Assembly (NCBI RefSeq): GCF_028867935.1
Contig: NZ_JAPQNS010000002.1
Span: 310,001-374,000, forward strand
DNA from: Flavobacterium sp. SUN052
GTDB lineage: Bacteria; Bacteroidota; Bacteroidia; Flavobacteriales; Flavobacteriaceae
Direction of reading: 5' to 3'
DNA length: 64,000 bases
The notes below the pieces were generated by a model. It saw only the letters and a program-made list of their open reading frames with translations, made no database searches and had not been told where the DNA came from. Numbering within the stretch: position 1 is the stretch's first letter; every line of letters starts with the position of its first letter. This document shows positions 31,813-50,500 of the stretch, one piece after another. A program made the position numbers and the translations under genes.

Positions 31813-31882
31813 TAGGTACGGTGTTTCACGTTTCATTAGCTGCGCTGTTTCATGAAACGACGCAGTTATTGAAACCTGGTAA

Positions 31883-33823
31883 TTATTTCACTCCCGGCAG
31901 CAGGGCTGTTCGCAGCATTACATCTACTTTCTGAGCGGGTGTCCCCGATTCATGGTTGGCTATTGGCTTAATTAGCCATTGAACCACCAAAGGCGGATGA
32001 ATAACCTTGAATCCCAGCTCGGCCGAATGGGCTTCAATCCGGGCGATGATTTTCTGTCGTTCGGTTTCGTCGGTGGTCTGGTGCAGTTCATTACTGACCT
32101 GCCAGGCATAAGCCCGGTTTTGCTTCATCATGCTGCGTTCCAGACCTTTAAACCTGTCCTCGATCAAGTGCAAAACCCGCCCGAACGGCCGGAAAATGCG
32201 CCCGACATTGTCGTTCATCTGGTCGTACATATCATCGAACAGCTTGTTCATCAGGTCGAAGTCTGCCGTGATGCTGGCCAATTCCTGCCCTTTGAAAACT
32301 TCCGCCAGCACAATCGGCAAATCGAAGGTAATGTGAGCGTTGGCCGCCGAAAAAATGTGCTGATTTGTGACCACGGGCAGCCGGGAAGCATCAAACGAAA
32401 CCTGCCAGGGGCCCGTTGCTGTTTCGCCATCGAAGTACCGGTTCAGCGCTTCGAAATAGCGATTACCGAAGCCAACATCCAGCCGCTCCATATCGACAGG
32501 GTTTTGAAAGATCCCTTGTTTAAGCCCTTCCGCTACGCGTTGCGTAACTACCCGATAAACGGCCGTGAACAAACCCATCGGATTGTTTTGCGCCTTAAAA
32601 TGGCGAGCCACTTTGTCGAGGTAAAAAATCACATCATCGATTTTTTCGAGGGGCGGAATGCGAAAATCGGGATTTAGTTCTTCCCACTCGTCAGTGAGCG
32701 CCGACGGCAAATAAAACTGCTGGCTCTTGGCGGCATTGGTAAATTCCAAAATCCGGCCGATCATCCCGTGACTAAACGCGCGGCCCATAGCCGCCACAAT
32801 CAGGTTGGTATTATCCAGGTTCCGAACGCCCTTATCGAACCATTGCACGGCCTCCATCACAAACGACTCGTTGGCATCGGCAGGGGCCACTTTGAGCAGA
32901 TCAGCGTAGTGATCACCCACAAAAAACCGGACAAAATAAGGTGTCAATCGTTGCAGAGGGCCCACAATCAGGCGGTCGCGCATCAGTTCAATGCAGGCAT
33001 CAGTTAGTTCCGCCCCTTCCAGCGACGGCCCCGATTGCTGGGCCAGAATAGCATTCATCAGATCGCGACACTCGGTTTCGTTTTCACTCAGCAGGTCATC
33101 GTCGATACCCATCATGGCGCCAACCACATGCCAAAGGTGCAGGTAGGCTTCGCGCTCTTCGGGAGTCAGCTTAATGCCCAGTTGCTCCAGCCCGTCGATA
33201 ATAACCACACCAAACGACAGCAGGGTACCTACCAAATCCTGCTGGTTAATGGGAATACCATACGTGTCTTTATCCCAGTTGCGTTGTTGGGCAAAATAAC
33301 GGATGGTGGCGTGCATGAGCCGCACTTTTTGCGTCGCGACAATGGCCGTTCCATCCTGCTCAAAGTTGTTCTTCGTAAGCATATCGACCACAAACTGCGC
33401 CGTTTCCATAAGCCGCCGACTGAACGCGGTCAGGCTTCCATCGTGAACACGTAACCGCCCGGTTTGGTACAGCACTTTAGCGCCCCGCCAGCAGGTGTAG
33501 CACAGCGGCAACGACTTACAGAGCAGAATGAGCAACATTTTGGGCCCGTGTTGCCGAAAAACGTCCGACGCAATCATCAGCTTAAATGGCTCGGCATAGG
33601 CGGGCAACTTCCGTGTATGCACAAAATACCCTTCGACAATGTCTCGTACTTTTTCGGGCAGGGCGTCGAAAGCCGGATTCGGAAATTGCCGGTTTTGCAC
33701 GAGCATCTGAAAAATCTGGTCAATTTCACCCTTTTGGTTTTCGGCCAGCAGCGTTGTAATGACTTCATCAGCAATGGGATCGCCCATTGTACGTTTGCTC
33801 CAGAGAAATTCGTCTGTATACAT
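31883..33823 (-). CDS. MpaB/DUF2236 oxygenase-like domain fused to DUF5995
   Basis: 646 residues, cytoplasmic by appearance. The N-terminal half (about 90-300) has QKVRLMHATIRYF, NQQDLVGTLLSFGVVIIDG and EAYLHLWHVVGAMMG, the conserved His/Arg pattern of the MpaB / rubber-oxygenase (DUF2236) heme-binding domain. The C-terminal half (about 400-640) has FTAVYRVVTQRVAEGL, MERLDVGFGNRYFEAL and ANAHITFDLPIVLAEV, which fits DUF5995. Each is normally a separate protein. Possible role: heme oxygenase acting on lipids or isoprenoids; not proven. It lies between the caspase-SGNH gene and the histidine kinase, same strand, with a palindromic repeat upstream. Confidence 0.75.
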   Translation of the reverse strand: MYTDEFLWSKRTMGDPIADEVITTLLAENQKGEIDQIFQMLVQNRQFPNPAFDALPEKVRDIVEGYFVHTRKLPAYAEPFKLMIASDVFRQHGPKMLLILLCKSLPLCYTCWRGAKVLYQTGRLRVHDGSLTAFSRRLMETAQFVVDMLTKNNFEQDGTAIVATQKVRLMHATIRYFAQQRNWDKDTYGIPINQQDLVGTLLSFGVVIIDGLEQLGIKLTPEEREAYLHLWHVVGAMMGIDDDLLSENETECRDLMNAILAQQSGPSLEGAELTDACIELMRDRLIVGPLQRLTPYFVRFFVGDHYADLLKVAPADANESFVMEAVQWFDKGVRNLDNTNLIVAAMGRAFSHGMIGRILEFTNAAKSQQFYLPSALTDEWEELNPDFRIPPLEKIDDVIFYLDKVARHFKAQNNPMGLFTAVYRVVTQRVAEGLKQGIFQNPVDMERLDVGFGNRYFEALNRYFDGETATGPWQVSFDASRLPVVTNQHIFSAANAHITFDLPIVLAEVFKGQELASITADFDLMNKLFDDMYDQMNDNVGRIFRPFGRVLHLIEDRFKGLERSMMKQNRAYAWQVSNELHQTTDETERQKIIARIEAHSAELGFKVIHPPLVVQWLIKPIANHESGTPAQKVDVMLRTALLPGVK

Positions 33824-33831
33824 AAAGGGAT

Positions 33832-33947
33832 TGGAACGCAGATGACGCAGATGCTGCGCAACGCGGATAAAACCGGATTTTTTTTATCGAAACAAGCAAA
33901 ATCCGTGTCGATCTGCGTTGCGCAGCATCTGCGTCATCCGCGTTCCA
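33832..33947. repeat. Palindromic intergenic repeat, family A, copy 2
   Basis: 37-bp arms (starting TGGAACGCAGATGACGCAGA at 33832; mirror arm 33911-33947) with only two mismatches. The right arm reaches 14 bp into the caspase-SGNH gene and supplies its last residues and stop codon. Confidence 0.88.
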
Positions 33948-36933
33948 TTTTGATTGTCTTATTTATCTCAGAAACAAACTTGGATGATAGGCTCAGAAAC
34001 CCTTTGTCGTTGGGGTGGATTTCGTCGTACCAATAATCGGCGAGTCGTTCGGTGCGCCGAACTGTTTTGCGCAGGTCGAGATACGTTACGTTGGGATATT
34101 GGGCCGCTACCGTTTGGAGTTGCTCGTTGAATCCGTCGATGATATGGCGAACGGTGGCTTCCCGTTCGGCCACATCGGTAATCCCTTTCTGGGTCAGCGC
34201 TTCGCCCATCCAGCTCGAACTACCGGGTAGTTTTTCGCTCCCCGACGGAATTACATAATCGTAGCCGTGAACCAGTACCCGTACCTCTGGATAACCCAGA
34301 TGCGCCAACCGCAGAATGCGCTTGTAGCGGTCGCAAACGGCGGTTACTGTTGTGTCAAAGGCATCGGTCAGAAAACGATTGGGACCAGTCTTACTGCCGT
34401 CAGGTGTATCACAGATCAGGCTGGCAAAAGTTTCACCAAGGAGGTCGTTACCGCCACCGCTAAGCAGGAAAAAAGCGGGTTTAACTTGGGCGATTGCTTC
34501 CAGAAACTCGCTGTTTTTCAGGTAATCCTCCAACGTTGCCCCGGCAGCCGCCACGCTGAATACCGAGTAAACCCCGGACAGGTAATCGACAATATCACGG
34601 AGCATGAATGGATATTGAAACCACGAATCACCCTCGGCCACAATGCGAACCCGGTCGGGGTAGCGCACGAGATTCTGGCGATACTGGCGATTCTGCACCC
34701 GATGTGCCACCGTATTAGCAACCGCTAGTTTAAGGTCCGTCCATAGGCCACGCTCGCTGCCGTCGGGCGTAATCACGCGGAGTTCGTTGCGCAGTTTGAG
34801 CGTTGGCTGGGAGCTGGTGGTATCGGTTTCATAATACAGACCAAGCGCAAAATCAGCCAGAAGATCTTCCTGAGGAGCATTCTCGGGCAGGGTTAGCATC
34901 TGGCTCAGCTCGTCTTCGCGAACGATATTATAAAGCGGATTAATCAATTGCAGGGTGATCGTCTGCGTACTCCAGTCGGGCAAAGGTTCCGACTCGTCAA
35001 CATCGGTTTGGATACTTCCCCGCGTGTCGTTTGCTTTGAGCCGGTCGGCCAAAACAGGGGGCGACGGTAGAGCGTCTAAACTCAGGAACGCCAACGTCTT
35101 TTCCGACAGCGGGTCTTTGGTGACCAGCAACTTAAAATACTCAGTCGCATGAGACCAGTTGTATTGTCGGATTACTTCCTCCAGCTTCAAGCGGAACGTG
35201 GTTTGGCGACCAGTAGGGGCTTTTTTATCCTTCAAACCCAGCGTGACGGTCTCTCCCGGCTCGATCCGGTAGTTGGTTGGCAAAAAGCCCGAAAATGACA
35301 TAAAATCCCGCGACAGATACAGCGTCGTACAGTAAACAGGCTGGTCGGCGGGATTCGTTAACCGAATGGTTAATGTGGTACTCCACTGTCCGTTATTAGT
35401 CTCGTACGTTATCGGAATCGCGGCCGGATGCGCTTCAGCCAATTGCACAACATCGCTTCCCTGTGGTACCAGTTCGACCGCCAATATGGGATCGACCACG
35501 TCGGGATTGCGCAGGTTTCGCAAATACTGCCACTTGGCTACGTGCCGCAAATCATCAGTCAGCCAGGTAAATACCTGCGGATCATCGGCCAGGAGTGGAC
35601 GAATGAGCGGTCTGTTTTCGTCATTCGGAGCCGACACATAATACAATCCATTCCGAACGTTCAGCGTATAATCGGCGCGGGCTTCGTCATCTTCGGGAAT
35701 CACAATGCCATCGGTCAGCGCGGGCTGGGTGGGATCACCCGATGGTTTCAGTAGTTCAGGCAGATCGTTGTTTGGTCCACCGTGGTTGGCAAAATGCAAC
35801 CGGATTGGCTGAGTTAGCAAGCCCGCGATGCTGGCTCGATAGATGACTGTTTTATCCAAGCTAGCCAGTATATCAGGGGCAACGGCAAGCACTGTGTAGT
35901 CGGGACCGACCCGTTGAACACCAACCGTATACGATTCACCGTTGGCTCCCAGAAGCTGAATAGCCTTGCTAAGTGCCATGCCATGAATGGCCCCAACATC
36001 GAGCAGCCAGCCTATCCGTTGGTTGTACGTTGCCGATGCTGACAATGTCGCGGGGTCGATAGTTTGATTCAGAAAACCCCGATTCAGGAGCAAGCTTCCA
36101 TCAGCAGTGCGGTCTGATGACTCCGGTACATACACCCGTGGGCGTTGTTCGTAGCCGAACCGCATATATTGCCGAACGCGGTTATGCAGGTCGCTGTAGG
36201 TCACTTGACCGTGGGCGGCCTCGAGAACGGCCAATAGATTTTTGGTAAAAATCCCCTCGCCATTTACTTCAACTGCACTTTCGTCGGATTCGCAGGCCGC
36301 CATCTGAATGTGTGCGCCCTGCGGCATGGCTACGTCAAGGCCCTGCTGAATCAGTTGGTCGGAAGTCAGTTCGTTATGAAAACAAAAAGCCTCATACGGT
36401 CGGCGGGGCATGGGATCATTGAGCTTGCGGTCGCGTACATCCTGACCATCCATCGCAGCACCAAGCAAGTCGATGACGCGGGTATTGTCGCCCGAGTGGC
36501 AACAGTCGAAAATCATGATGACGTGTGCCCCAGTCGCGCTAACCTGCCCAATCAGGTATCGTAATTCCTTATCGGCCAGTAAAAATTCGTGCGTTTCGAC
36601 CGTGTCTTTATCGTGGCATACCAGGCATTCAAGCTTTTTGTCGGTTTCGGTTGGCCAAATATCAGGGTCAGCCATTTCCTGCGCTCCGTGCCCAGCGAAA
36701 TAAAACAAAACAGTATCGTTCGGCCCAGCCTGGGTCAAATAGTTCTGGAAGCCGTTAATAATGGCAACTTTGTTTGCTTGTTGATCGGTCAACAGGAGCA
36801 GGTTGGGGACAAAATCAGACTGCTTCTGGAGATACTGAGCCATCGCTTCGGCATCGCCAACAGGTCCCCGTAACGCACGTACACGGTCGTAAGCCCCAAT
36901 ACCAACAAGAAGAGCGTAGAGATTTGGTTTCAT
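33934..36933 (-). CDS. Caspase-like peptidase fused to SGNH/GDSL hydrolase
   Basis: 999 residues, no signal peptide. The N-terminal caspase p20-like domain (about 1-260) starts YALLVGIGAYD, with the catalytic His at about 82 (YFAGHGAQ) and Cys at about 145 (FDCCHSGD). A long middle region (about 290-720) is beta-rich, including an Ig-like stretch (WSTTLTIRLTNPADQPVYCT). The C-terminal SGNH domain (about 755-995) has block I AEGDSWFQYP, a GATLEDYLKN glycine, block III SGGGNDLLGE and block V YDEIHPNDKGF, so Ser, Gly, Asn and His are all present. One chain thus carries a cysteine protease of the metacaspase type and an esterase/lipase-type hydrolase. It is the last caspase gene of the array; its stop codon lies in a palindromic repeat. 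Confidence 0.88.
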   Translation of the reverse strand: MKPNLYALLVGIGAYDRVRALRGPVGDAEAMAQYLQKQSDFVPNLLLLTDQQANKVAIINGFQNYLTQAGPNDTVLFYFAGHGAQEMADPDIWPTETDKKLECLVCHDKDTVETHEFLLADKELRYLIGQVSATGAHVIMIFDCCHSGDNTRVIDLLGAAMDGQDVRDRKLNDPMPRRPYEAFCFHNELTSDQLIQQGLDVAMPQGAHIQMAACESDESAVEVNGEGIFTKNLLAVLEAAHGQVTYSDLHNRVRQYMRFGYEQRPRVYVPESSDRTADGSLLLNRGFLNQTIDPATLSASATYNQRIGWLLDVGAIHGMALSKAIQLLGANGESYTVGVQRVGPDYTVLAVAPDILASLDKTVIYRASIAGLLTQPIRLHFANHGGPNNDLPELLKPSGDPTQPALTDGIVIPEDDEARADYTLNVRNGLYYVSAPNDENRPLIRPLLADDPQVFTWLTDDLRHVAKWQYLRNLRNPDVVDPILAVELVPQGSDVVQLAEAHPAAIPITYETNNGQWSTTLTIRLTNPADQPVYCTTLYLSRDFMSFSGFLPTNYRIEPGETVTLGLKDKKAPTGRQTTFRLKLEEVIRQYNWSHATEYFKLLVTKDPLSEKTLAFLSLDALPSPPVLADRLKANDTRGSIQTDVDESEPLPDWSTQTITLQLINPLYNIVREDELSQMLTLPENAPQEDLLADFALGLYYETDTTSSQPTLKLRNELRVITPDGSERGLWTDLKLAVANTVAHRVQNRQYRQNLVRYPDRVRIVAEGDSWFQYPFMLRDIVDYLSGVYSVFSVAAAGATLEDYLKNSEFLEAIAQVKPAFFLLSGGGNDLLGETFASLICDTPDGSKTGPNRFLTDAFDTTVTAVCDRYKRILRLAHLGYPEVRVLVHGYDYVIPSGSEKLPGSSSWMGEALTQKGITDVAEREATVRHIIDGFNEQLQTVAAQYPNVTYLDLRKTVRRTERLADYWYDEIHPNDKGFLSLSSKFVSEINKTIKMERG

Positions 36934-36981
36934 AGAGAATGGAGTCGGTCAAACTTACTGTTTAACAGGATCATAAGCAAT

Positions 36982-37194
36982 CTATAAAAAAGCGAACACA
37001 CGCTTTAATTCCGCATCTAATGGCGCTAACGGAGCCCGGCGTAACCACCGCAATACTTCATCCGGCGAGCGAATCAGTCGCGCCCCTGCCGACGAGACCA
37101 CCCACACGTTACCGTCGGGACGCACCGCATAATCCAGCACCGATCCAAACAGAATTTTAACCAGCGTGGTAGCCGTGAGATGGATACCAGTCAG
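36982..37194 (-). pseudogene. In-frame C-terminal remnant of a beta-propeller paralog
   Basis: Directly after the TAA of the 1018-residue gene (37195-37197) the same frame stays open for 70 codons to a TAG at 36982-36984. Its translation contains VRPDGNVWVVSSAGARLI and DAELKRVF, which align with IRPDGTAWIVTKAGIEML and SKELADKYVF at the end of the upstream protein. So a second, diverged copy of the last 70 residues follows the first. It has no start of its own and I read it as the leftover of a tandem paralog; stop-codon readthrough is a less likely alternative. Confidence 0.75.
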
Positions 37195-40100
37195 TTATTC
37201 GAAGACGTACTTATCTGCTAATTCCTTAGAAAGTATGGACAGACCGGCACTATGCAACCAGTTCAATTTCTCGGATGGGAGGTATAGCATCTCAATACCA
37301 GCTTTGGTAACAATCCAGGCCGTACCATCGGGCCGGATGGTCAGGTCTAGAAACTGGCGCACCGCTTGTTGAGCTAGCCGGACGCCGGTTGTCAGTTGCA
37401 GCACATCAACGACCACCTGCCCGTCGGTCAACTGGCGAGTGAGATAAAGCAGCCCATTCTGGGCGGTGGGAGGTCGCTCCAGGACTCCTTCGCCCACCTG
37501 GATGACCCGCTGCCTGCCCGCCTGTAGGTTTAGCCAAAACGTCTGGTTGAGGGTACTATACACCACGCCGTTAGTGTTCGCTTGATCAGTACCCGTTGGC
37601 ACAAAGGCAAACCGCTGAAACACCCCAGCCTGGGTATGTAGCAGACTAATAGCTCGCCCATTGAGCCGGTAAACCCAAATGTGATTAGCGTTCTTGATAA
37701 ATAGCAGTCTCCCATCCGAACTCAGCAAGTTAGTCGCTGGCTCTCCCGGCTTTTTTCCGTCCTGATAATTAAACTTACTCCCCGGAAAGCTACGAATCGC
37801 CTTCCATGTACCACCTTGAAAAAAATACAATACTGGTTCAGAGGGATACCAGGGAGCAATCACACTATGTCCGGTTCGGGGAGAAAACCCGAAAAGATGA
37901 TCGACACCTTTAGGTAGCGAGTAGGGATTCCGGGCGGTTGGGTCTATGGGCTGAAGGGTTACCCGGCTACCATTTGCCTGCGTTTGCCAGAAATACGACC
38001 CAATAAATCCCGCCCCTGGTGTCTGAATATTATCGTTGCCCCGCTGGAAAGAAAATAAACCCGTTGCTGTTTGCTCAACGGCGCGTATCGGCACAGCGCC
38101 CGCATCGGTTAGTTGCCATAAGCTATCGGCCACGTTGCCCCCCGTGTGCGTGAAAAAATGTCGCCCGTCTGGTGCCACCAGCAGATTGCGTTCAGTGATC
38201 AATCGCTGGGTTCCGCCAAGCCGTCTGAACGACCGGATGTAAGGCATTCGAAACCGATAAAACGGAGTTAATCCGTCGTCAGAAATACGCCAGATATAGT
38301 TGGCAGCCTGGTTTGGACTTTTTACACTCCCTGATTCGTGGTAGGTCAAAAGAAAACGATCCTGACGGAGAAACCGACTTTCGCCGATCCAAAACGGCAA
38401 TTTCAGTTTTTGCAGTAACGTCAACTGCCCGGCTCGAACCCTGTATAAAACTGTTGCCGAATCTGACGCTACGCTGCGGCCAAGCAGATACTGACCACTC
38501 TCCGAAAATTGGGCTTCAAGCAGCGGTGCATCCAGGTGCGGTTGGTGCAGCCTCCACAATAAAGCCGTGCTATACAGCACCTTGTCTGTCAATGCATTGG
38601 CCCCGCTCAGCAGCCATTGACCATCGGAGGAAAAAAGTGTAAAAACAGCCGACAATTGCGCTCGAAAGCCGTAGAGAGGGGTAAGTCTGTCGGAGCCGAG
38701 TTGCCATAGGCTGTCGGAACCAGCAACTGAACTGTATGTAAGGAGCAACCGGCTATCGGGTGAAAAGCGGGGATGCATCGCCGTATTAGAAGTTGCGATG
38801 TCGGATCTGCGGAGTGCGTTTTGAAAACCATGCACAGGCACAAGCCCCGCGTCTGAGCATCGCCAAAGGCTGTCGTTCTGAAGATGGTGCGCTAGTATAT
38901 AGCGCCCATCGGCCGAAAACTCATCATATTGAATCCCGTTTTTGTGGGTAAACTGGTGTAACAGCCTGGGAGCGGAACCGCGCAAACTCCAACACTGCGC
39001 TTCAGAGCGTTCGTTAGAAGAACCCCGCAGCAACCAGCTCCCCTCTGGCGAAAAGCGGCTCAACACGCGTTGGGTTGGTTCGCTTGCTCCTGGTTGCTGG
39101 CCAAACACGTGCCGAAGATTCAGGTTGTCGGGCGTTACCTCCCAAAGACTGTCCTGACTCGATTCAAAAGAACTCAGCATCAGCCAGCGGCCATTGGCCG
39201 AAAATGCTTCAGTTAACCGATCCGTATAGCAATTGGTAAATGAGCGAAGCTGCACGGAATCGGATTCGAGCCGGGCCAGTTCGACGGTGTTTCTGCTGTT
39301 GCCCTCCATCAATAGCCACCGGCTATCGGGTGAAAAAGCAGCATTGCGCAGGGGCTGCTGAGCGGTCAGATTACGCACCAAACGCGGACCATCAGGTGAC
39401 AGGTAATAGAGTTGCCGCACGGTAACCGGCCCCTCAGTGGCTAACAAACACAGAAAACGGCCATCGGGCGAGAAAATCGACTGTTTCGGGTTAGCCGCGA
39501 CATTAGTTTTTTCCAACTGACCATTCCGAATCCGGTAGAGCCAGTTCGTCCCATCGTTCTGAAAAGATGCCAGCATATAGCGACCGTCGGGTGAGCAAAC
39601 GGCCCCCTGTATGATATCAGGTAGCTTACTCACTACCCGTGCGCCCCTCGGCTGACAATTGAGCAGGAGCGTGCCAGTGGTGGTGGTAACCCACACATAG
39701 CGGTCGCCGGGGACGAAAAATACACCTTCAACTGGCCCTCCGAACGTAAAGAGGCTCGTGAGGCTGTCGCCCCGGCAGGCATAAAGCCGAGCTGGGTACC
39801 CCGAGGCTACCACAAAGCGCAGTGTTGTCGAATGCCAGAGCTGAGCTGCTTTCAGGGTAGACAGCCATAGATTTGGCCGGTTCACCAGCGTGCCAAGCTC
39901 CTGCAGAATCCGACTACTGTCGGGAAAGTATCGGTGGGCGTGTTCAAGCAGACGAATAGCTTGCACGGGATCATTATCAGCCAGAGAACGGTATTCGGTC
40001 AGTAAACTTTGCAACAGAATGTGATTCATATTGCGCCGACGGGCTTCTTCCATCCACGTCACCATACCGGCTGCTCCTAAACTACGTGCCAACTGAAACG

Positions 40101-40251
40101 CGCTGTACGCTTTCGAAAATTGCCCTCCTGCCATCAACGCTTTCCCCCGTGCCTCCCAATGCCGCGCCGATTCTGCCGGAGGCAGGATCTGTGCTATGGC
40201 TCCGCCAGCAGAGCAAAGCAAAAACAGGAAGAGTAGCGTTGTACGCATCAA
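37195..40251 (-). CDS. Secreted WD40/TolB-like beta-propeller protein
   Basis: 1018 residues. Signal peptide (MMRTTLLFLFLLCSAGGAIA), then a TPR-like helical part (about 25-125; GKALMAGGQFSKAYSAFQLARSLGAAG), then many beta-propeller blades marked by repeats such as SPDGRYMLAS, SPDGRFLCLL, SPDSRWLLME, SANGRWLMLS, SPEGSWLLRG and SADGRYILAH. Total length allows two or more propellers. It probably works as a protein-binding platform in the periplasm or at the cell surface. It lies 28 bp after the papain-fold gene within the caspase array. No catalytic motif seen. Confidence 0.82.
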   Translation of the reverse strand: MMRTTLLFLFLLCSAGGAIAQILPPAESARHWEARGKALMAGGQFSKAYSAFQLARSLGAAGMVTWMEEARRRNMNHILLQSLLTEYRSLADNDPVQAIRLLEHAHRYFPDSSRILQELGTLVNRPNLWLSTLKAAQLWHSTTLRFVVASGYPARLYACRGDSLTSLFTFGGPVEGVFFVPGDRYVWVTTTTGTLLLNCQPRGARVVSKLPDIIQGAVCSPDGRYMLASFQNDGTNWLYRIRNGQLEKTNVAANPKQSIFSPDGRFLCLLATEGPVTVRQLYYLSPDGPRLVRNLTAQQPLRNAAFSPDSRWLLMEGNSRNTVELARLESDSVQLRSFTNCYTDRLTEAFSANGRWLMLSSFESSQDSLWEVTPDNLNLRHVFGQQPGASEPTQRVLSRFSPEGSWLLRGSSNERSEAQCWSLRGSAPRLLHQFTHKNGIQYDEFSADGRYILAHHLQNDSLWRCSDAGLVPVHGFQNALRRSDIATSNTAMHPRFSPDSRLLLTYSSVAGSDSLWQLGSDRLTPLYGFRAQLSAVFTLFSSDGQWLLSGANALTDKVLYSTALLWRLHQPHLDAPLLEAQFSESGQYLLGRSVASDSATVLYRVRAGQLTLLQKLKLPFWIGESRFLRQDRFLLTYHESGSVKSPNQAANYIWRISDDGLTPFYRFRMPYIRSFRRLGGTQRLITERNLLVAPDGRHFFTHTGGNVADSLWQLTDAGAVPIRAVEQTATGLFSFQRGNDNIQTPGAGFIGSYFWQTQANGSRVTLQPIDPTARNPYSLPKGVDHLFGFSPRTGHSVIAPWYPSEPVLYFFQGGTWKAIRSFPGSKFNYQDGKKPGEPATNLLSSDGRLLFIKNANHIWVYRLNGRAISLLHTQAGVFQRFAFVPTGTDQANTNGVVYSTLNQTFWLNLQAGRQRVIQVGEGVLERPPTAQNGLLYLTRQLTDGQVVVDVLQLTTGVRLAQQAVRQFLDLTIRPDGTAWIVTKAGIEMLYLPSEKLNWLHSAGLSILSKELADKYVFE

Positions 40252-40279
40252 GGTCAGGTAGTTTGAGAAGTTGAGGGGT

Positions 40280-41665
40280 TCACAACCTAATCAACACCGG
40301 TATCATCGACTTCCCCTCCGAACAATTGAATGACATCTCAGCAGAGCCATATTCAATCGGTTTGCCTGACTGACCCTTCAACAGGGCAAGCACTTTCTGC
40401 TGTGGACTACCGGGAGTCTGTTGCAGCGTTCGCGTAATAATCCCGAGATCGGTTATAGGCGTTGAGCTGAACAAGAACAGCAAGTGATCCTGCCCCAATG
40501 CCTTTTCTAATGTAATAACCTGACTTTCAACCGGAAAAACAAATGGCTCGCCGGAGCGAATTGTAGGAGCGGATTCGCTCTCGGCAGGGATGTAGCGTTT
40601 TACGCCTTCGCTTCCCAACTCAAACAGATAAAGGTGCGCGGGCTGAACAGCATTTGCGTGAAATTTAACCTCTTTACCAGCCGGGTAAACACCTCCCGGT
40701 TGATAGGTACGTATGCCTTCCACCAAAACAGACTCCATCGGGATGGCTTGTCCGTTAGTCAGTCGAATATCGATTTGCCCCGAAAGCGTGGTATGGCGTG
40801 CTACCGCCGACAAGGGCGTTACCCGAAACGCGCCCATTGTAAAGGTTGGCATATCGGCGTATTTAATCCAGCATTTTCCGTTGTCGCCCCACTCCTGCCC
40901 CCAACTATTAACCACCCGAAACGCTCCGCCAAATTGATCGTCGTCGTAGCCAATCACACACAGAGCCAGGCCATACGGAGCCGTGTCGATGGTTTCGTTT
41001 GCGACTGGCGTCCAGACTTTTTTAGCCAGTGTAAACGATTCCGGTGCCATAAACTCCACCACAACGGGCGTACCGTCGGCGAGGGTTTTCTTCAATAGGC
41101 GAATTTTGTTGAGCTTTGAGGCTTTTGCTCCAAACAGGGGTTTATAGTCGGCAATACGGTAATTGACGGCTTCGCGAATGGCCGTACTGGAAGCCGGTTG
41201 ATTGCAAGGCATTACGCCCGCCGTTTGCAGCCTCGGCACACCTTCTGTTCGGAGGATGCCGAGGGCCGATTCCAGAAAAATGCCGTTTTTGCAGTCCGTA
41301 TCATCGGGCGATTTGCACCGCTGATATAAATAATCGGGCGACATTCGGTTGACGTTTATTGTTTCGCTTTCCTTACTATTGAGTGCCTGATTTTCCAGAA
41401 TTGTACGGAGATAATAAGCGGTAGCATAGGCTACTGTGGTTGCTTTTTCGCCCTGATTGCCAGCTACCGGGCAGAACACTTCGTAGGAGATTGAATGCGG
41501 CAGTTTAGCATTTTCTTCATCGGTCACCGCCAGTTTTTCTGACAAGCCAAAGTCGCGCTGCTTCATGGGTTTCAGCCCTCCCACAAATTTTTTGGCGGGC
41601 TGGGCCCGGGTTGCTCCTGCCGTAATCAGCAGAAGTAGAGTAAACAGAAGGCGGTGGTTTATCAT
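40280..41665 (-). CDS. Papain-fold (C1) protein lacking catalytic residues, with DUF4384-like C-terminus
   Basis: 461 residues, signal peptide (MINHRLLFTLLLLITAGATR). About 50-290 has the C1 peptidase layout: VAGNQGEKATTVAYATAYYL takes the place of the NQG-x-CGSCWAF segment, YGLALCVIGYDDD takes the place of the HAV-x-IVGY segment, and VVNSWGQEWGDNG keeps the Asn-Ser-Trp-Gly motif. The nucleophile Cys is replaced by Thr and the His by Leu, so it should not be a protease. About 325-410 (HLYLFELGSEGVKRYIPAES) resembles DUF4384. It is 4 bp after the Ig-caspase gene, so the two are translated together; binding of peptides or of a caspase is an attractive idea but unproven. Confidence 0.8.
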   Translation of the reverse strand: MINHRLLFTLLLLITAGATRAQPAKKFVGGLKPMKQRDFGLSEKLAVTDEENAKLPHSISYEVFCPVAGNQGEKATTVAYATAYYLRTILENQALNSKESETINVNRMSPDYLYQRCKSPDDTDCKNGIFLESALGILRTEGVPRLQTAGVMPCNQPASSTAIREAVNYRIADYKPLFGAKASKLNKIRLLKKTLADGTPVVVEFMAPESFTLAKKVWTPVANETIDTAPYGLALCVIGYDDDQFGGAFRVVNSWGQEWGDNGKCWIKYADMPTFTMGAFRVTPLSAVARHTTLSGQIDIRLTNGQAIPMESVLVEGIRTYQPGGVYPAGKEVKFHANAVQPAHLYLFELGSEGVKRYIPAESESAPTIRSGEPFVFPVESQVITLEKALGQDHLLFLFSSTPITDLGIITRTLQQTPGSPQQKVLALLKGQSGKPIEYGSAEMSFNCSEGKSMIPVLIRL

Positions 41666-41669
41666 CGGT

Positions 41670-42785
41670 TTATCGTCGTAAGAAATAGAAATCTCCTGTT
41701 ATGGAGGTGTTGAACCAGGGGAGCTGGCTGTGGCTCGACTCTTTATCCACCGTTTGGGCAACCGATTTGAATACCATTTCCAGCGGCAGGTTTGGCTGTT
41801 GCATGGTATCCAGCAAGACCTTGGTATAGAGCCCATTCTGCCCTGATCCATCACTGGCTTTTTTGCCAGGGCTTGTGGAGTACGCAATAATAGAACCAAT
41901 GGGCGAACGGACTTCAGCCAGTCCCCCGTCGTTCCCTAATGCCCGTGAACTTGTCCCCTCGAAGGGATTATTTCGGCAGGCATCAAGAATAATGATCTTG
42001 GCCAGTGCGTCGGTTTTGTCCAGCTGATCGAACAGATTACTGGTGGGAATGCAGGTAGCTTTGATCTCAGCTTTGTCGGGTTCGCGACCCACCGGAATTG
42101 CATCAGTCGGCACCAGATAATTGTCGCCGTCGATTTGTAAACCGTGTCCGGCGTAGTAAAACAGGCCAACCTGATACCCTCCTAACTCCTCAACAAATCG
42201 GTTAATCTCAATGGCCATATTCTGGCGACTCACGTCGGTTTTCAGCACAACTTTAAATCCTAGTTTGGTCAGTGTTTGTGCCATTGCTTGGGCATCGTTT
42301 ACCGGGTTGGGAAGTGCAGCCGATGCCGGATACGCCGAATTGCCAATGACCAGGGCTAGCCGACGTTCGGGCTTGTAGTACTTTACCATCAGAGTCGATG
42401 ATGTTTTTCCGCCCGGATTGGAAACTTGTAGTTGAATCGTATTTGCTCCTTCGCGCAGTGGAACGGTACGCATATACGAATAAGAGCCAGGACAACCATC
42501 GGACTCTTTGGCTACCTTGAGCGTCCGCTCACGGGCCAATTCCTGCCGGTTCAGAAACACCCGTAGCGTATCGCTCGCCGGTACGTAATTACGGATACAG
42601 GCCCTTAGAGGAAACTGATTACTTGATACAGCCGTATCATTACCCACAACGCCCGGCCACAGCACAGTCGGGGGAGCCGGAAACATCGACACAGTATTCA
42701 GCCGTATCCGGGCATCACCAGCAAACGACTGTGCTTTGGACCAAAGCGGACTTAGACCGAGCAGAACGAGGTATATAAATCTCAT
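41670..42785 (-). CDS. Secreted caspase-family peptidase with N-terminal Ig-like domain
   Basis: 371 residues, signal peptide (MRFIYLVLLGLSPLWSKAQS). Residues about 50-130 form an Ig-like beta-sandwich (REGANTIQLQVSNPGGKTSSTLMV). The caspase p20 domain (about 135-370) starts RRLALVIGNSAYP; catalytic His at about 214 (FYYAGHGLQ), catalytic Cys at about 270 (ILDACRNNPF), and the SGQNGLYTKVLLDTM segment is typical of bacterial orthocaspase-like proteins. Export to the periplasm is unlike the cytoplasmic caspase-SGNH protein. Gaps of 12 bp upstream and 4 bp downstream make it part of a tight operon. Confidence 0.9.
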   Translation of the reverse strand: MRFIYLVLLGLSPLWSKAQSFAGDARIRLNTVSMFPAPPTVLWPGVVGNDTAVSSNQFPLRACIRNYVPASDTLRVFLNRQELARERTLKVAKESDGCPGSYSYMRTVPLREGANTIQLQVSNPGGKTSSTLMVKYYKPERRLALVIGNSAYPASAALPNPVNDAQAMAQTLTKLGFKVVLKTDVSRQNMAIEINRFVEELGGYQVGLFYYAGHGLQIDGDNYLVPTDAIPVGREPDKAEIKATCIPTSNLFDQLDKTDALAKIIILDACRNNPFEGTSSRALGNDGGLAEVRSPIGSIIAYSTSPGKKASDGSGQNGLYTKVLLDTMQQPNLPLEMVFKSVAQTVDKESSHSQLPWFNTSITGDFYFLRR

Positions 42786-42797
42786 AATCAGTGTTTT

Positions 42798-43526
42798 TTA
42801 AAATATATAGGCTAGTCCTAACGATGTTCCTGTGCCTTGCCAACTCACGCGTGGGGGTTTATGGGGCGGTCGTTTTTTCAGCATAAATGAATAGGCCGCA
42901 TTGGCGATAATACTAAGACCTGCTGCAGCTATCCAAGGGTAAAGGCGATGTTTCTGGCCCATTAAATCAGCCTGTTTTTGATCGAATCCCGCCTTTTCGA
43001 GGGCATTTATTGGGGGGGCATCGTTTTTATAAGTCCGGATAGACTGAATAAGCCCGATACCTCTGGCAACCACAAGCGCTGTCAGAGCCGCACTGCCCCC
43101 CCATCGTCCGTAGGTAATGAGTTGTTTTTTAGTGAGTAGCAATCCCCGTCTTTTCCCCAAAAGTGTATCGACAGCGTACGTTCGGACCATGAACATGATC
43201 CGCACATCAGCATCAATTTTCCGCCCATCGGCCAGCGGGCTCCAGTAAAACGTGCGATCGGTACCGGGGCTTAAGTTGGTACCGATTTCTCCTTCCACGG
43301 CTTTGGGGAAGAAAACGTTATCAGGCGTTTCGATCTGGATATACAGCGAATCGTCGGGTTGGGCTTTGGGAAGGTCGTAGGTAAATTTGACGCGCTTGCC
43401 CAGCGTGTCAACCTGTATTCTAATATTGGTCACGTAGGGTTGTTTTTGGGCAAAGGCAGTAGCTGTCAGCAGGGTCAGTAAAGCTCCACTTAACCAGCGA
43501 GTTCCAAAAAAATAGCGTGTTTTCAT
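42798..43526 (-). CDS. Membrane protein of the caspase operon
   Basis: 242 residues. Signal peptide (MKTRYFFGTRWLSGALLTLLTATAFA), beta-rich extracytoplasmic part (about 28-120; VTNIRIQVDTLGKRVKFTYD, FYWSPLADGRKIDADVRIMF), then two hydrophobic helices (about 140-160 WGGSAALTALVVARGIGL and 195-215 YPWIAAAGLSIIANAAYSFM) and a basic tail (KKRPPHKPPR). No known domain. It lies 5 bp after the lipoprotein gene and 12 bp before the Ig-caspase gene, so probably it anchors or assembles the exported caspase parts. Confidence 0.65.
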   Translation of the reverse strand: MKTRYFFGTRWLSGALLTLLTATAFAQKQPYVTNIRIQVDTLGKRVKFTYDLPKAQPDDSLYIQIETPDNVFFPKAVEGEIGTNLSPGTDRTFYWSPLADGRKIDADVRIMFMVRTYAVDTLLGKRRGLLLTKKQLITYGRWGGSAALTALVVARGIGLIQSIRTYKNDAPPINALEKAGFDQKQADLMGQKHRLYPWIAAAGLSIIANAAYSFMLKKRPPHKPPRVSWQGTGTSLGLAYIF

Positions 43527-43531
43527 GGCGG

Positions 43532-45001
43532 TTAGAGAGGAACGATGGTAACGGCACCGGGGCGATTGAAGTCGATAGTTAGTTGGCTGGGACTGATTGT
43601 CCAGAGTTCGTAGTTATTGACTAAGAACCAGAGCGTATCGCCGATCACAACGCCCCGGTTGAACGCCTTAGCCGACGTTGCCGGAAACCAGCCTGCATAG
43701 ATCGAGGTAAATACAGGCTCATTTTTAGTGTCGAGCGTAACCCGGTAGATATTCAGCAGGTTGTTCAACAAATAAGCATGGTCGCCCTGCGAAATAGCCA
43801 ACACACGACTGTCAACATCTGAAGAGAGCCAGAGTTTGTTTCGGTCTGTGTAGGCAACCGTAGCTAACTTTTTCAAGCTCACATCAGCCAGATCATACAC
43901 ACTAAAAGTATTGACCAAATCAAATGAGTTGGCTACCAGCTTATTATTGATAACAAAAGCGACATTGGGGCTTATAACTTCTTTCGTGTTATAAAACGTG
44001 GTTTTGTTGGTGGACAGAGTAGTCGAATAGCCACCTGTCAGGTAAGAATTGCCAGTGGGTTGAGTGTTGGGTGAGTTTCGAATAACAGTGGCCCGGTCAT
44101 CCTGCACATCAGTTAGCGAGTAATAACTGGACTGAACATACGTAGCAAATTCACTTGTGGTTTTATAAGCAAAATTCTGATCAGTGATAACCCCACCAAT
44201 TCCGTAACGCTGCAAAAAACCATCACCTACGAGATAGGTGGTCACAAACAGACGGTACTCGTTATTGGCAAAATAGGCGTTGTTTATTCCTGCTATGTAA
44301 AGCTTGGTGGGGCGGGCTGGGTCGCGGGATTGACACTTACCCTGACACAGTTCATTTAGAAAACGTCCTCTGGTCGTCCATTTAGAAATAGCCGGGTCGA
44401 ACTCGTAGCTATAAATGGAGTCAGACTTACTATAACTGTCATATTTAATGCAAAACAGATTATTTTTGATCGGAGACAAAACGGGCATAAACCCAAATGC
44501 TGGCCCCGGCAAATCCGTCACGTGGGTCCACGGACTGATTTTCAGGCGTGTGTATCCCTGCGACGAGAACGCTTTTCGATAGTCTTGATACGTCCGAACA
44601 GCCAAGCTATCTTCTGATCTATAGGCAAAGGGAGTTACATAAAGGTACTGCCCTTTTGTGTTATCAAATTTTATTGTGTCCGAGATAAACTGGCTTGTTA
44701 CCGCCGTGCTGCTCCGTAACGCTGTTACGACCTGAACCCTACCAACGGTTTTTCGCTCCCGTACGAACGACGTAGCCGCTAGGCTATCATAGAAAATTAG
44801 TGCGCCATAAATCAGTGTTGCATCGTTACCTATAAAGCGGACTTTACAAGCGGTCTCACTGATTTTTTGCGGGGGAAGTTTTTCGTCCAACTCAATGGGC
44901 GAGTAAATTTCCCTTGGCGGAACATCAAACAGCTTAGTGCAGCCACTTAAAGCCCAGAGCATGGACAAGGCTAATAGCGCAAATAGGAGTAGCTTTTTCA
45001 T
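43532..45001 (-). CDS. Lipoprotein of the caspase operon
   Basis: 489 residues with lipobox LSGC (Cys about residue 21; MKKLLLFALLALSMLWALSG). The mature protein is beta-rich and looks like a propeller or kelch-like fold without a clear repeat (LPGPAFGFMPVLSPIKNNLF, SYEFDPAISKWTTRGRF, DTLWFLVNNYELW). No enzymatic motif. Its ATG overlaps the stop of the 39-codon ORF upstream (ATGA), and the membrane-protein gene starts 5 bp after its stop. Function unknown. Confidence 0.65.
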   Translation of the reverse strand: MKKLLLFALLALSMLWALSGCTKLFDVPPREIYSPIELDEKLPPQKISETACKVRFIGNDATLIYGALIFYDSLAATSFVRERKTVGRVQVVTALRSSTAVTSQFISDTIKFDNTKGQYLYVTPFAYRSEDSLAVRTYQDYRKAFSSQGYTRLKISPWTHVTDLPGPAFGFMPVLSPIKNNLFCIKYDSYSKSDSIYSYEFDPAISKWTTRGRFLNELCQGKCQSRDPARPTKLYIAGINNAYFANNEYRLFVTTYLVGDGFLQRYGIGGVITDQNFAYKTTSEFATYVQSSYYSLTDVQDDRATVIRNSPNTQPTGNSYLTGGYSTTLSTNKTTFYNTKEVISPNVAFVINNKLVANSFDLVNTFSVYDLADVSLKKLATVAYTDRNKLWLSSDVDSRVLAISQGDHAYLLNNLLNIYRVTLDTKNEPVFTSIYAGWFPATSAKAFNRGVVIGDTLWFLVNNYELWTISPSQLTIDFNRPGAVTIVPL

Positions 45002-45117
45002 GGTAGGGGCGAATGAATTGGCACATAAGAGGGTGAACTAAATTCTGTAGTAAAGCTAGAAAATACACGTTCCGCAAGCGTTTGAAAATCAGCCAAAAGT
45101 GTTTGATTTCCGGCCAT
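44998..45117 (-). CDS. 39-residue ORF coupled to the lipoprotein gene
   Basis: ATG at 45117-45115, stop TGA at 45000-44998 which overlaps the lipoprotein ATG as ATGA. The product begins MAGNQTLLADFQTLAERVFS and ends SYVPIHSPLP. The first 25 residues can form an amphipathic helix. Overlap of stop and start and the protein-like composition suggest translational coupling. It has no known domain and may equally be a leader peptide. Confidence 0.45.
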   Translation of the reverse strand: MAGNQTLLADFQTLAERVFSSFTTEFSSPSYVPIHSPLP

Positions 45118-45134
45118 ATTGGTGTCAACAGCAT

Positions 45135-48005
45135 TTAATTCGTTCGCCTAGATGCCACAAGCGATACCCTTTCCCTCGACACTGTTCGCTCATAGTTTTC
45201 CAGCGCTGCGCTGTATCTTCCATACTGAGCCGCCAAATCGGTCTGCCCGTTCAATTGATAGCTTTCCTGTACTTCGCGGCACGAAGCCAGCAGATTTTCG
45301 CGCATCACTTGTGTGACCAGGTAGCCCTCCTGCGCCTGTTTTCGTAACCGCCCGAGGGTACCTCTGTCCAACAGCTGACGTATTTTGGGGGTCAACAGAT
45401 TGTTCTCTAAAGCTCGATACAACGCATCGGTCTGAATGAACTGCCCAAAAGACCGGCAGGCACGCGCTACACCCATGCCTTGATTAATCGGATCATTACG
45501 GCCTGCCAATAGGAGAACAGTTACGTTTTTCAGCGAATCGGCCTGTTCTATTCGTCTGGTCAGCCTATTGTAAATGGTGTCTCGCTGCCCCGCGAGGTGA
45601 GCCAAGATCGGGAGTGAATCCGGGTCGAAACGCAGAAAAGGACGACCTGTACGCAGAAACAAATCATTTTTGGCCAGCGTGTCGGCGGCTAAATAATCCT
45701 TTTGGGCTGTCTGATACGCGTTCTGTAACTCAGCAGAGCGGGCATTACTTAATAACCGGACATACGATTCCTGGCTTTGATAAAATAGTGCAACGCCAAT
45801 AGCTATAAATATGAGCAATCCCAGTGCCCCTATCGCCAGTTTGTTGGCGCGCTGCACGGCAAAACTGCGTTTTAGAAATGCCCGCTCTGGCATCGATAGC
45901 CAGGTCAAATGCCCAAACTGCGAACCAAACGTGCTGAAGTTCCAAAGCCGTGAAATTTTTGCATTCACAGGTTTACCTAGCCGAATCAGATTTCGGAGTG
46001 GAACGGTGCCCCATACATAAGCCCGCCCCCGACCCAGTTCCACATAGCGGCTGGTAGCCTCGGCCAGTTCTTCCCGTTGCGTTAGTTGAGTTGGTCCCGT
46101 CTGCTGAATCCATTGCCGGTACGTTTGCCACGAACCAATAAGAGCCTCGTGGGTCAGTTCATGATAGCCTTTCCCGGCTTCGGCATCACGCCCGGTTAGT
46201 AATCTGTTGTCGGTTAGTGTTGTCAGTATCTGGGTGCAAATCGCTTGCTTTTCAGCACCAAAATCCAGTTCGGCATGATCCACTCGCCGACGCACAAACT
46301 CGCCCCCCTGAAACGCCACAAACCGAAGCAGCAAATCCCGAAAGAAGTCCATTTTGGTCTTGAACGGGGTAATAATGCTTTGTTCTTTGTGTTCCAGAAT
46401 TTGCCCAATACCGGCGTAATCGCGTTCGTAGATCGTCCGTTCGGGGCGATCCTTTGCCGATTCGTACAACTCGTTTAGTGCCAGCGATAGCAGAGGTAAC
46501 GCATTGGGGTAATGCCTGAAATCCTCGATGATGCGGGCGACTGTTTCTTTTTCGGGATAGTAAAACATACCCGTTTGCAGGGCCGGCCGGATAATGATTT
46601 CCTGCAACGCATCGACGTCGAGCACTGGAATGGTATATTGTTGCGTCTCCGTATCCCAGAACCGATTCTGCTTATTAACCTGGGGAACAAACTCAATTCG
46701 CATAGTGGCCACCACCTTTGTTAGCCGACCAGCTTCACTCTGTTGAAAGGAAGTCAAAGCCGCAAAAAACTGCACCAATTCTTCGTCTGTCCTATCTCCT
46801 GCCTGCGTTACCAGTTCTTCCATCTGGTCAATAAGTAGCAGTTGGGGCGGACTCTGCCGGACGCGTTCGAGTTCGGCTAGGGGCGTTTTGCCAGGCCGAA
46901 TCGTAGCATGCGTTTTACCCGCTTTATGGTAAGGCCCTAGAATACCAGCCTTCACCAGCGACGACTTACCGGTACCCGATGCGCCAACCACCACTACAAA
47001 GTAGGCGTCTTTGAGCAGTCGGTTCAGTTCTTTTATGGCTGCGTCGCGTCCGTAGAAAAAAGAACTGTCTTCAGGTTGATATGCGGCCAGCCCTTTGTAG
47101 GGATTCACGCGTTGCCGTACCGCCAGGTTGGTCGGGCTGAACGACGGCTCAAGAAACATGAACTGCCCTCCCTCATGGCTCGAAAACGAAAACAGGCAAG
47201 ACGTCTGTTCGTGTTGTTGAGCGGATGCCGTAGCTTCGAGCCGTTGCTGAATGTATAGTTGCAACTCGTTGACCGTCACAATGCCGTCGCGGTTGGTATC
47301 GGCATCGCGGTTGGTTAAAGCACGGGCGAGCAACGTAGCAAAGGGTGAGGCTGCTTGTGACTCATTGGCAGAGCCATTAGCTGAGTTGCTAGCTGCGGCA
47401 TCCTCCGAGCTAATATACTGATCTAAAGCCTGTTGATTGTGTGCCGACGAGGTCAGAATCTGGTTGGCCCGGTAGCGGGTATAATGTCCGAAATCATCCT
47501 GCGAAATATCGTCCAACTCCGTGTCAATGCCACCCCGAAAACCCGAAACAGCCTGTCGCACCGCTCCTGCATAGCAACAATCCAGAATCAGCAGCACTTG
47601 CTTGCCGTTCAGTTCTCCAATTTGGTCGGCCAGCCACTGCATGGAAATGGCCGTTTCGGCAAGTTGCGAGCGCTCAGCATCTACGGGTAGCAGATAGCCA
47701 CCGTAAACAGGCGGGCCATCAGTTTGTTGCTGCGTCAGCGCTACACCATGTCCGGCATAATAAATCACAATCTGCGCTTCTCCGTCGGCATCGAGCGCCT
47801 TTATTCCATTCAGAAACTGCTCAAATGTACGCTTATCAGGGTCGGGGCAGAGATGAGTCTGGTAGCCGTAAGCCGCAAGTGAATAGGCCATAAGCCGGAT
47901 GTCGTAGGTAGGCGTTTTGAGGGGCCGAATACCCGGATTCGTATACGTCTGAGCACCAATGAGAAAGGCGTGACGGTTCGGAAAAATGGCAAACGGGGCG
48001 TTCAT
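45135..48005 (-). CDS. Caspase-like domain fused to STAND-type ATPase, membrane-anchored
   Basis: 956 residues from the ATG at 48005; an ATG 19 codons upstream is possible. The caspase domain (about 1-260) opens NRHAFLIGAQTYTNPG, with catalytic His at about 86 (YYAGHGVAL) and Cys at about 144 (LILDCCYAG). NPYKGLAAYQPEDSSFFYGRD then begins a novel-STAND NTPase (nSTAND1-like) domain with Walker A GASGTGKSS at about 340 and Walker B LLLIDQMEEL. A winged-helix part (LTDNRLLTGRD, YHELTHEALIGSWQTYRQWI) follows, a membrane helix near 740 (LAIGALGLLIFIAIGVALFY), and a helical C-terminal part. This is the layout of signal-activated NLR-like effectors: ATPase senses or oligomerises and the caspase cuts. 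The trigger is unknown. Confidence 0.88.
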   Translation of the reverse strand: MNAPFAIFPNRHAFLIGAQTYTNPGIRPLKTPTYDIRLMAYSLAAYGYQTHLCPDPDKRTFEQFLNGIKALDADGEAQIVIYYAGHGVALTQQQTDGPPVYGGYLLPVDAERSQLAETAISMQWLADQIGELNGKQVLLILDCCYAGAVRQAVSGFRGGIDTELDDISQDDFGHYTRYRANQILTSSAHNQQALDQYISSEDAAASNSANGSANESQAASPFATLLARALTNRDADTNRDGIVTVNELQLYIQQRLEATASAQQHEQTSCLFSFSSHEGGQFMFLEPSFSPTNLAVRQRVNPYKGLAAYQPEDSSFFYGRDAAIKELNRLLKDAYFVVVVGASGTGKSSLVKAGILGPYHKAGKTHATIRPGKTPLAELERVRQSPPQLLLIDQMEELVTQAGDRTDEELVQFFAALTSFQQSEAGRLTKVVATMRIEFVPQVNKQNRFWDTETQQYTIPVLDVDALQEIIIRPALQTGMFYYPEKETVARIIEDFRHYPNALPLLSLALNELYESAKDRPERTIYERDYAGIGQILEHKEQSIITPFKTKMDFFRDLLLRFVAFQGGEFVRRRVDHAELDFGAEKQAICTQILTTLTDNRLLTGRDAEAGKGYHELTHEALIGSWQTYRQWIQQTGPTQLTQREELAEATSRYVELGRGRAYVWGTVPLRNLIRLGKPVNAKISRLWNFSTFGSQFGHLTWLSMPERAFLKRSFAVQRANKLAIGALGLLIFIAIGVALFYQSQESYVRLLSNARSAELQNAYQTAQKDYLAADTLAKNDLFLRTGRPFLRFDPDSLPILAHLAGQRDTIYNRLTRRIEQADSLKNVTVLLLAGRNDPINQGMGVARACRSFGQFIQTDALYRALENNLLTPKIRQLLDRGTLGRLRKQAQEGYLVTQVMRENLLASCREVQESYQLNGQTDLAAQYGRYSAALENYERTVSRERVSLVASRRTN

Positions 48006-49349: not shown

Positions 49350-49397
49350 ATCACCAGACGGGCAAGCTTTTTGAAACCTTGCCCGTCTGGTGATTTA
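49347..49397. terminator. Bidirectional terminator containing both stop codons
   Basis: A perfect 20-bp inverted repeat (TAAATCACCAGACGGGCAAG and its complement) with an 11-nt loop. Its outermost bases are the TAA of the App1 gene on one side and the TAA of the leftward gene on the other. Confidence 0.8.
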
Positions 49398-50498: not shown

Positions 50499-50500
50499 AA

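Follow-up and report, generated by a model that had tools for sequence, protein, structure and literature searches.

Caspases of bacteria are mostly known as single proteins or from short operons, with roles that have been guessed. One survey, in its available part, already describes proteins that join caspase, GDSL and amidase parts, caspase-STAND proteins, and 20 operons with more than one metacaspase, three being the most in any of them (PMC3501461). Closest to the locus described here are an Amidase_2-metacaspase-GDSL protein of Chitinophaga pinensis (PMC3501461), caspase-NACHT/nSTAND1 proteins with or without WD40 repeats (PMC3501461, PMC8195603), and a two-gene EACC1-caspase conflict system, whose caspase is proposed to free variable effectors by auto-proteolysis (PMC7159879). 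We analyzed a stretch of 64,000 nucleotides (hereafter the window; positions 310,001 to 374,000 of contig NZ_JAPQNS010000002.1 in assembly GCF_028867935.1, filed as Flavobacterium sp. SUN052) that carries an array of nine genes transcribed in the order H-[G-F-E-D]-C-B-A-HK, every gene on the minus strand. Comparison with relatives splits the array into module 1 (H, C, B, A and the histidine kinase HK) and module 2 (G-F-E-D), which in the window stands inside module 1. From gene sequences and gene order, we tentatively read the locus as a two-compartment regulated proteolysis system made of two conserved modules, a reading that is possible yet short of probable.

B shares the caspase and GDSL parts of the C. 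pinensis protein, and a further protein of the window genome (locus L010) shares its Amidase_2-caspase-SGNH fusion; the published case, as far as the available text goes, is one protein, whereas a fusion with an Lcp/DUF5995 protein, the order H-C-B-A-HK and module 2 are features of the present loci (PMC3501461). H is likewise a caspase-nSTAND1 protein but has a transmembrane (TM) helix and a tail where the described proteins, in the text available, have WD40 repeats, the propeller of the array (C) being separate and exported (PMC3501461, PMC8195603). With the EACC1 system, in the part of the source available, the likeness lies in an N-terminal caspase followed by variable effector domains (PMC7159879). 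The NCBIfam model of EACC1-type caspases gave 52-75 bits against a cut-off of 140. In Pfam, which presumably contains an EACC1 model, no match to it was obtained among genes A-H at E 0.1, and no neighboring EACC1 gene was found. The present module composition is not among the multi-metacaspase operons described in the available part of PMC3501461, and a search of the open PubMed Central literature by title and abstract, a scope with subscription papers mostly outside it, returned no description of these module compositions.

Gene content and borders of the array

The original prediction had placed seven genes, H to B, on one strand at 33934..48005, with three caspase-domain genes retaining His and Cys, and these positions and residues were borne out. 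The start of H at 48005 rather than at the first ATG (48062) also held, the 67% identical orthologue in locus L226 beginning at the same point. A spacing of 4-28 bp had been claimed; it applies from G to C (G-F 5, F-E 12, E-D 4 and D-C 28 bp) and fails for H-G (133 bp) and C-B (261 bp). Nor does the array end at B, since A and HK follow in relatives, and its borders widen to 29668-48005. Because the gene order recurs across genera, the array exceeds chance. The two edges of the G-F-E-D insert share no repeat of at least 8 bases, and sigma-70-type sites are at shuffle level (20 versus 17.4); terminator-like sites exceed the shuffle (34 versus 22.1, standard deviation 4.3), are scattered over the region and were not used as evidence.

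Each of the three caspases has its own architecture. B (33934..36933) has no signal peptide and runs from a metacaspase-like caspase through a middle region to an SGNH (GDSL) hydrolase; E (41670..42785) comprises a signal peptide, an Ig/cadherin-like region and a paracaspase-like C14 domain with His214 and Cys270; and H (45135..48005) combines a caspase (GHG in the His85 region, DCC at 142-144), an nSTAND1 NTPase, a single TM helix at 723-741 and a tail of ~215 aa that is probably periplasmic. Peptidase_C14 was matched in all three (Pfam E-values of 1.4e-22 for B, 6.4e-43 for E and 3.8e-16 for H). The closest solved chains are MALT1 paracaspase for the E caspase and metacaspase-1 for the B caspase, in agreement with the earlier description of the caspases as structurally different. 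His and Cys are both kept in 35 of 39 members of the E family, window included, in 25/25 homologues of B and in 3/3 sequences of H. B matches Lipase_GDSL_2 in Pfam, and its domain qualifies as an SGNH/GDSL hydrolase: the SGNH blocks of the 25 homologues retain Ser in 25, Gly in 24, Asn in 22, Asp in 25 and His in 24. The nSTAND1 match of H (PF20703, E-value 3.8e-67), with the P-loop GASGTGKSS, identifies a STAND NTPase of the nSTAND1 type, and H is among 216 caspase-nSTAND1 proteins that reach an E-value of at most 1e-50 (120 listed; 7995 candidates were scored). In PADLOC, B, E and H matched one 'caspase' model and H gave a weak mad8 match (E-value 0.0025); A, C, D, F and G had no match there, and the components of one described anti-phage system were not found.

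Other caspase proteins were seen in the window genome and its relatives. The Amidase_2-caspase-SGNH fusion of L010 (6009-11671) is followed by a 520 aa gene that is CHAT-like by eye, and a further window-genome caspase protein (L008, 7546-10950; 1134 aa) has an end resembling an alpha/beta-hydrolase by eye. The caspase protein of L221 carries DUF7379/DUF676 matches, and C-terminal CHAT matches occur on the caspase-SGNH proteins of L232 (56 bits) and L223 (20.6 bits, below the cut-off of 24).

The remaining products of module 2, together with C, are predicted to be exported. G (43532..45001) is a lipoprotein with an LSGC lipobox, mostly beta in a low-confidence model (predicted local distance difference test, pLDDT, 46), and F (42798..43526) shows beta strands followed by two long helices (pLDDT 63); neither has a Pfam family, and no solved relative of G was found. 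The description of F as a membrane protein stands insofar as it is exported with two long helices, but these are borderline TM segments (best 19-residue Kyte-Doolittle means of 1.55 and 1.52 in the window copy). D (40280..41665) has a signal peptide, a papain-like domain (Peptidase_C1, PF00112) and DUF4384. Thr replaces the catalytic Cys of D and there is no His at GHALC; the label pseudo-papain is therefore apt, and D does not qualify as a papain (C1) peptidase. Among D relatives that reach the site, Cys is kept in 17 of 18 and His in 18 of 19, L128 being the exception for both, and because nearly all relatives keep these residues their loss in D is probably derived. C (37195..40251) consists of a signal peptide, a TPR-like region (sub-threshold Pfam matches) and a WD40-type propeller. 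The predicted signal peptides, lipobox and TM segment agree with the compartments proposed originally, namely B in the cytoplasm, H as a membrane-bound switch, and E with the lipoprotein and propeller in the periplasm.

A (31883..33823) joins an MPAB/Lcp rubber-oxygenase-like haem domain to DUF5995 and is fused to B in some relatives. Residues 19-322 match the Lcp rubber oxygenase structures 5o1l/5o1m (E-value 1.8e-16), and Arg137, Arg168, His171 and Arg175 are invariant in 9/9 A sequences, window included. His171 aligns with the haem histidine of rubber oxygenase and Thr141 was seen in the same alignment, so that the proximal haem His with its flanking Arg and the distal Arg and Thr of the Lcp/MPAB family are all present. 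The residues named for Lcp in the available text are distal Arg164, Arg195, proximal His198 and Arg202, with a moderately conserved site at distal Lys167 (PMC5522427); by our own pairing these four would correspond, in that order, to the four invariant residues of A. A thus shares the haem His and flanking Arg residues with the rubber oxygenases and differs in having Glu for the distal haem Lys167 (PMC5522427, as far as available); furthermore, A has DUF5995 and a caspase partner, and no signal peptide was seen in it. By analogy with its family, A may act on a polyisoprenoid. HK (29668..31836) is a histidine kinase with several TM helices that lies 3' of A in relatives too; in the copy scanned with Pfam, that of the L229 relative, 7TMR-DISM and HisKA were matched.

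Upstream of H, the window contains at 49395-51815 an ECF (extracytoplasmic function) sigma factor gene (51255-51815) and two partners without a clear family. In some relatives, short D-like genes likewise have sigma-like genes (sub-threshold Sigma70_r2) and zf-HC2/TPR genes beside them.

Distribution of the two modules in relatives

The window genome (8.1 Mb) appears to be filed under the wrong genus, the genomes of which measure about 2-6 Mb. Because a marker enzyme of the window genome is 84% identical to that of genome G461 and 57-60% identical to those of the listed members of the filed genus, relatives of G461 were chosen for comparison (36 genomes of its genus, taken to be Spirosoma; 222 genomes in 36 genera of its family, taken to be Spirosomaceae), and we infer that the window genome lies within Spirosomaceae. 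F was found in 0 of 119 other genomes of the filed family and 0 of 100 of the filed genus. Loci were fetched by E (L058-L076), TssC of the type VI secretion system (T6SS; L109-L135), F (L166-L205), nSTAND1 (L206-L219) or B (L220-L239). Unless stated otherwise, a count draws on loci retrieved with the partner gene; the count for D departs from this, as F led to 14 of its 20 E loci. The 20 B loci were picked by B alone, regardless of neighbors, and three of them are on contigs below 10 kb (L220, L222, L228). The E loci exclude G868, G872 and three places of G862, and five of 37 TssC places were excluded. F in L062 and L170 escaped the gene caller, and for L062 the coordinates of the profile match were used. 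Five of the D-positive loci belong to a single genus (g442), and the close relatives G859/G860 supply L060/L064, L068/L069 and L070/L071; for both reasons the Fisher values given below are optimistic. Peptide-pattern scans of contigs of named genomes, with patterns drawn from two-sequence alignments, yielded no match.

Module 1 was recovered in window order in another genus. Locus L226 (genome G582) has H-C-B:A-HK on one strand, without G-F-E-D, with identities to the window of 67% for H, 30% for C, 63% for B and 69% for A, B and A being one protein. In L212, a single strand bears B, H (32%), A (34%) and a weak C that scores 58 bits and lacks a Pfam match; the order differs from that of the window, and module 2 is absent from this locus as well. 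B was found in 39 of the 222 family genomes (12/36 genera) and in 8/36 genomes of Spirosoma. Among the 20 B loci, A is fused to B in three (L226, L231, L238) and lies within 2 kb in three others (L228, L229, L236), Amidase_2 is fused in nine, two more have a C-terminal CHAT match (one below cut-off), and three have neither A nor Amidase_2 nor CHAT by the profiles used. Fusion is the best sign that B and A may act together. A histidine kinase is found 3' of A in seven further loci (L201, L226, L228, L229, L231, L236 and L238). nSTAND1 occurs within 8 kb of B in 5/20 loci, compared with 0/48 control loci (27 T6SS and 21 F-only loci; Fisher p 0.0015), and by coordinates an over-cut-off nSTAND1 lies within ~10 kb in six of the 10 B loci of Spirosoma.

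Module 2 is centered on the F-E pair. E was matched in 15/36 Spirosoma genomes, and among the 17 loci retrieved with E alone, F adjoins E in 12. The other five (L072-L076) lack F and carry different, mostly longer proteins; in the one of them that was scanned, a pair of these proteins has FGE-sulfatase. The F profile matched 73/222 family genomes in 14/36 genera, and 40 F loci divide into 15 with a full E, one with a contig edge inside E, one with an Ig-like E remnant and 23 others. Of 20 E loci outside T6SS clusters and the window genome, 13, from six genera, have a D-like protein at most 8 kb from E, versus 1/21 F-only loci (Fisher p 5e-5); with four weaker E loci added the count is 13/24 (p 4e-4). 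In six loci (L067, L070, L071, L169, L171, L173) it is a short form on the opposite strand. A second secreted caspase, f9, follows directly 3' of E in 14/20 loci, with His and Cys intact in 15/15 members; the window copy lacks f9 and also the families f7 and f13. In relatives, a PQQ propeller, a kelch/fn3 protein or a LamG lectin often occupies the slot ahead of F, and we infer that the sensing parts are interchangeable and that the F-E pair behind them stays constant. Homologues are few: a large protein set contains five of F and five of G, G having in addition a paralogue in L009 and a relative in L182.

Possible coupling of the modules and competing explanations

The window is one of two nested cases in its genome. 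The other, L009, has the order amidase-[G-F-E]-B, unlike L010 and nine of the 20 B loci, in which amidase and B are one protein; this genome therefore holds two B loci that contain module 2. Elsewhere, L201 contains an A-B pair with F ~3 kb away and nSTAND1 within ~10 kb, without E; in L182, G-F-Ig precedes a weak CHAT match (15.2 bits) and separate nSTAND1 and WD40 proteins, without B and with no caspase found; and L215 contains B, nSTAND1, C-like pieces, two caspases and a doubtful F (21 bits). The longest contigs bearing five H homologues are of the same size as contigs bearing F (7,528, 50,145 and 4,037,608 bases) or G (38,606 and 27,674 bases); taking contigs of equal size as the same, H shares a contig with F or G homologues in five other assemblies, four of these contigs measuring 7.5-50 kb. 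Of the five G and five F homologues, two of G (P0006, 2,340 bases; P0010, 8,165,969 bases) and one of F (P0002, 18,015 bases), as well as a G/F pair at 7,251 bases, had no size match to any H among the matches listed. The composite of both modules thus recurs to a limited extent.

Several results weigh against joining the two modules, or their parts, in one proteolytic system. The 29 E loci outside the window genome include none with B or H and one with a weak C match, a result that rules out a single fixed seven-gene unit. Just one of the 24 over-cut-off nSTAND1 matches in the 36 Spirosoma genomes is near F, and because of this count the link between H and module 2 is drawn from the window, L182, L201 and the contigs of equal size. 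F stands beside the caspase-free gene family f2 in 21/40 loci, all of them among the 23 F loci without E, and in 19 of these 23 (L181, L183-L195, L197, L198, L200, L204, L205) three or more of seven caspase-free families recur; F therefore has a second life apart from caspases, which suggests another, possibly older, role. D is, judged by its residues, catalytically dead in the window, a sensing role for G would follow from its position (model pLDDT 46), A-like haem domains without DUF5995 occur in 3/48 control loci (135-173 bits, versus more than 1000 in B loci), and isoprenoid cleavage by A in this locus would be a guess. The co-conservation in several genera that the original prediction had called for was accordingly found in part and not for all seven genes. 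F-E accompanied by a D-like protein at most 8 kb away recurs in six genera; H-C-B-A recurs in L226, and its genes, rearranged and including a weak C, in L212. Independent occurrence, which would have spoken against a unit, applies between module 1 and module 2 and not within either.

The same E-locus and nSTAND1 counts, together with the presence of module 1 without module 2 in L226 and L212, favor the explanation that the modules are unrelated neighbors, module 2 having been captured between H and C, where it may share a promoter without any exchange of signals. We consider this a real possibility that likewise falls short of being probable, as it has to accommodate the double nesting in the window genome beside two different B genes, the equal-sized contigs that pair H with F or G homologues in five further assemblies, and the F gene ~3 kb from the A-B pair of L201. 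A function in envelope homeostasis rather than death, in which the system would sense damage and trim exported proteins, lipids and isoprenoids under the control of HK and, in some relatives, of a sigma/anti-sigma pair, would fit the export of most products, the kinase 3' of A in seven further loci and the Sigma70_r2 (sub-threshold) and zf-HC2/TPR proteins beside short D-like genes. The patchy distribution of B (8/36) and E (15/36), the few homologues of F and G (five each) and the shuffled composition are, however, more like conflict systems, and we judge homeostasis fairly unlikely.

Module 2 might instead serve as a T6SS accessory that responds in the periplasm when the system fires or an attack comes in, and the window copy would be its detached descendant. 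Seven E loci of Spirosoma adjoin ClpV, TssC or tube genes, and a tree of 33 ClpV proteins contains a clade of nine from two genera (support 1.0; L058, L059, L060/L061, L062, L063, L064, L066, L128, L166); for 9/9 of its members the fetched stretch includes an E-type caspase. Outside the clade are 24 ClpV proteins, one of them with f9-family caspases (L125) and one with F (L196), giving 9/9 versus 1/24 for the presence of a caspase (Fisher p 3e-7). Against this reading, E or F led to eight of the nine clade members and TssC to one. L128 has a fuller kit (WD40-caspase, f7, D, f13 and f9), and in four clade loci a short extra caspase that has lost its catalytic Cys lies next to or near ClpV. At L125 (6093-9079), the neighbors of ClpV, here from another T6SS clade, include three f9-family genes (118, 54 and 38 bits). 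Of the 20 non-T6SS E loci, by contrast, 19 were not seen with T6SS genes (an absence that defines the group), and the window genome has a single TssC, ~307 kb past the window end, with neither E nor F near it. T6SS was for that distance set aside as the principal explanation of the window copy, and we regard the accessory role as very unlikely.

Proposed course of events and its meaning

In a two-compartment regulated proteolysis system, our tentative reading of the locus, G and C (a lectin or another propeller in relatives) would recognize something at the envelope or cell surface, and F with the E/D pair would relay this recognition as periplasmic proteolysis. The signal would reach H through its tail or through F. 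H would then assemble with NTP, and its caspase, together with that of B, would release or activate the SGNH hydrolase and A; auto-proteolytic release of effectors by B is modeled on the EACC1 system. SGNH hydrolase and A might attack membrane lipid esters and polyisoprenoids (e.g., menaquinone or the lipid carrier of wall synthesis), growth arrest or cell killing would follow, and HK would set expression. Carried to its end, this course would amount to a two-compartment death pathway, running from periplasmic caspases and surface sensors, connected through operon nesting to a membrane STAND-caspase, to a caspase-lipase paired or fused with a polyisoprenoid-cutting haem oxygenase, with caspase-controlled self-destruction by way of envelope lipid carriers or quinones; in this complete form we hold it unlikely.

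Gene order across genera names the partners of these caspases: an Lcp-type haem protein joined to a caspase-lipase, a STAND switch with a TM helix, and exported proteases both live and dead, the caspase of this last set being found with one T6SS clade as well. If the proposed reading is true, the locus would represent a bacterial protease relay across the inner membrane.

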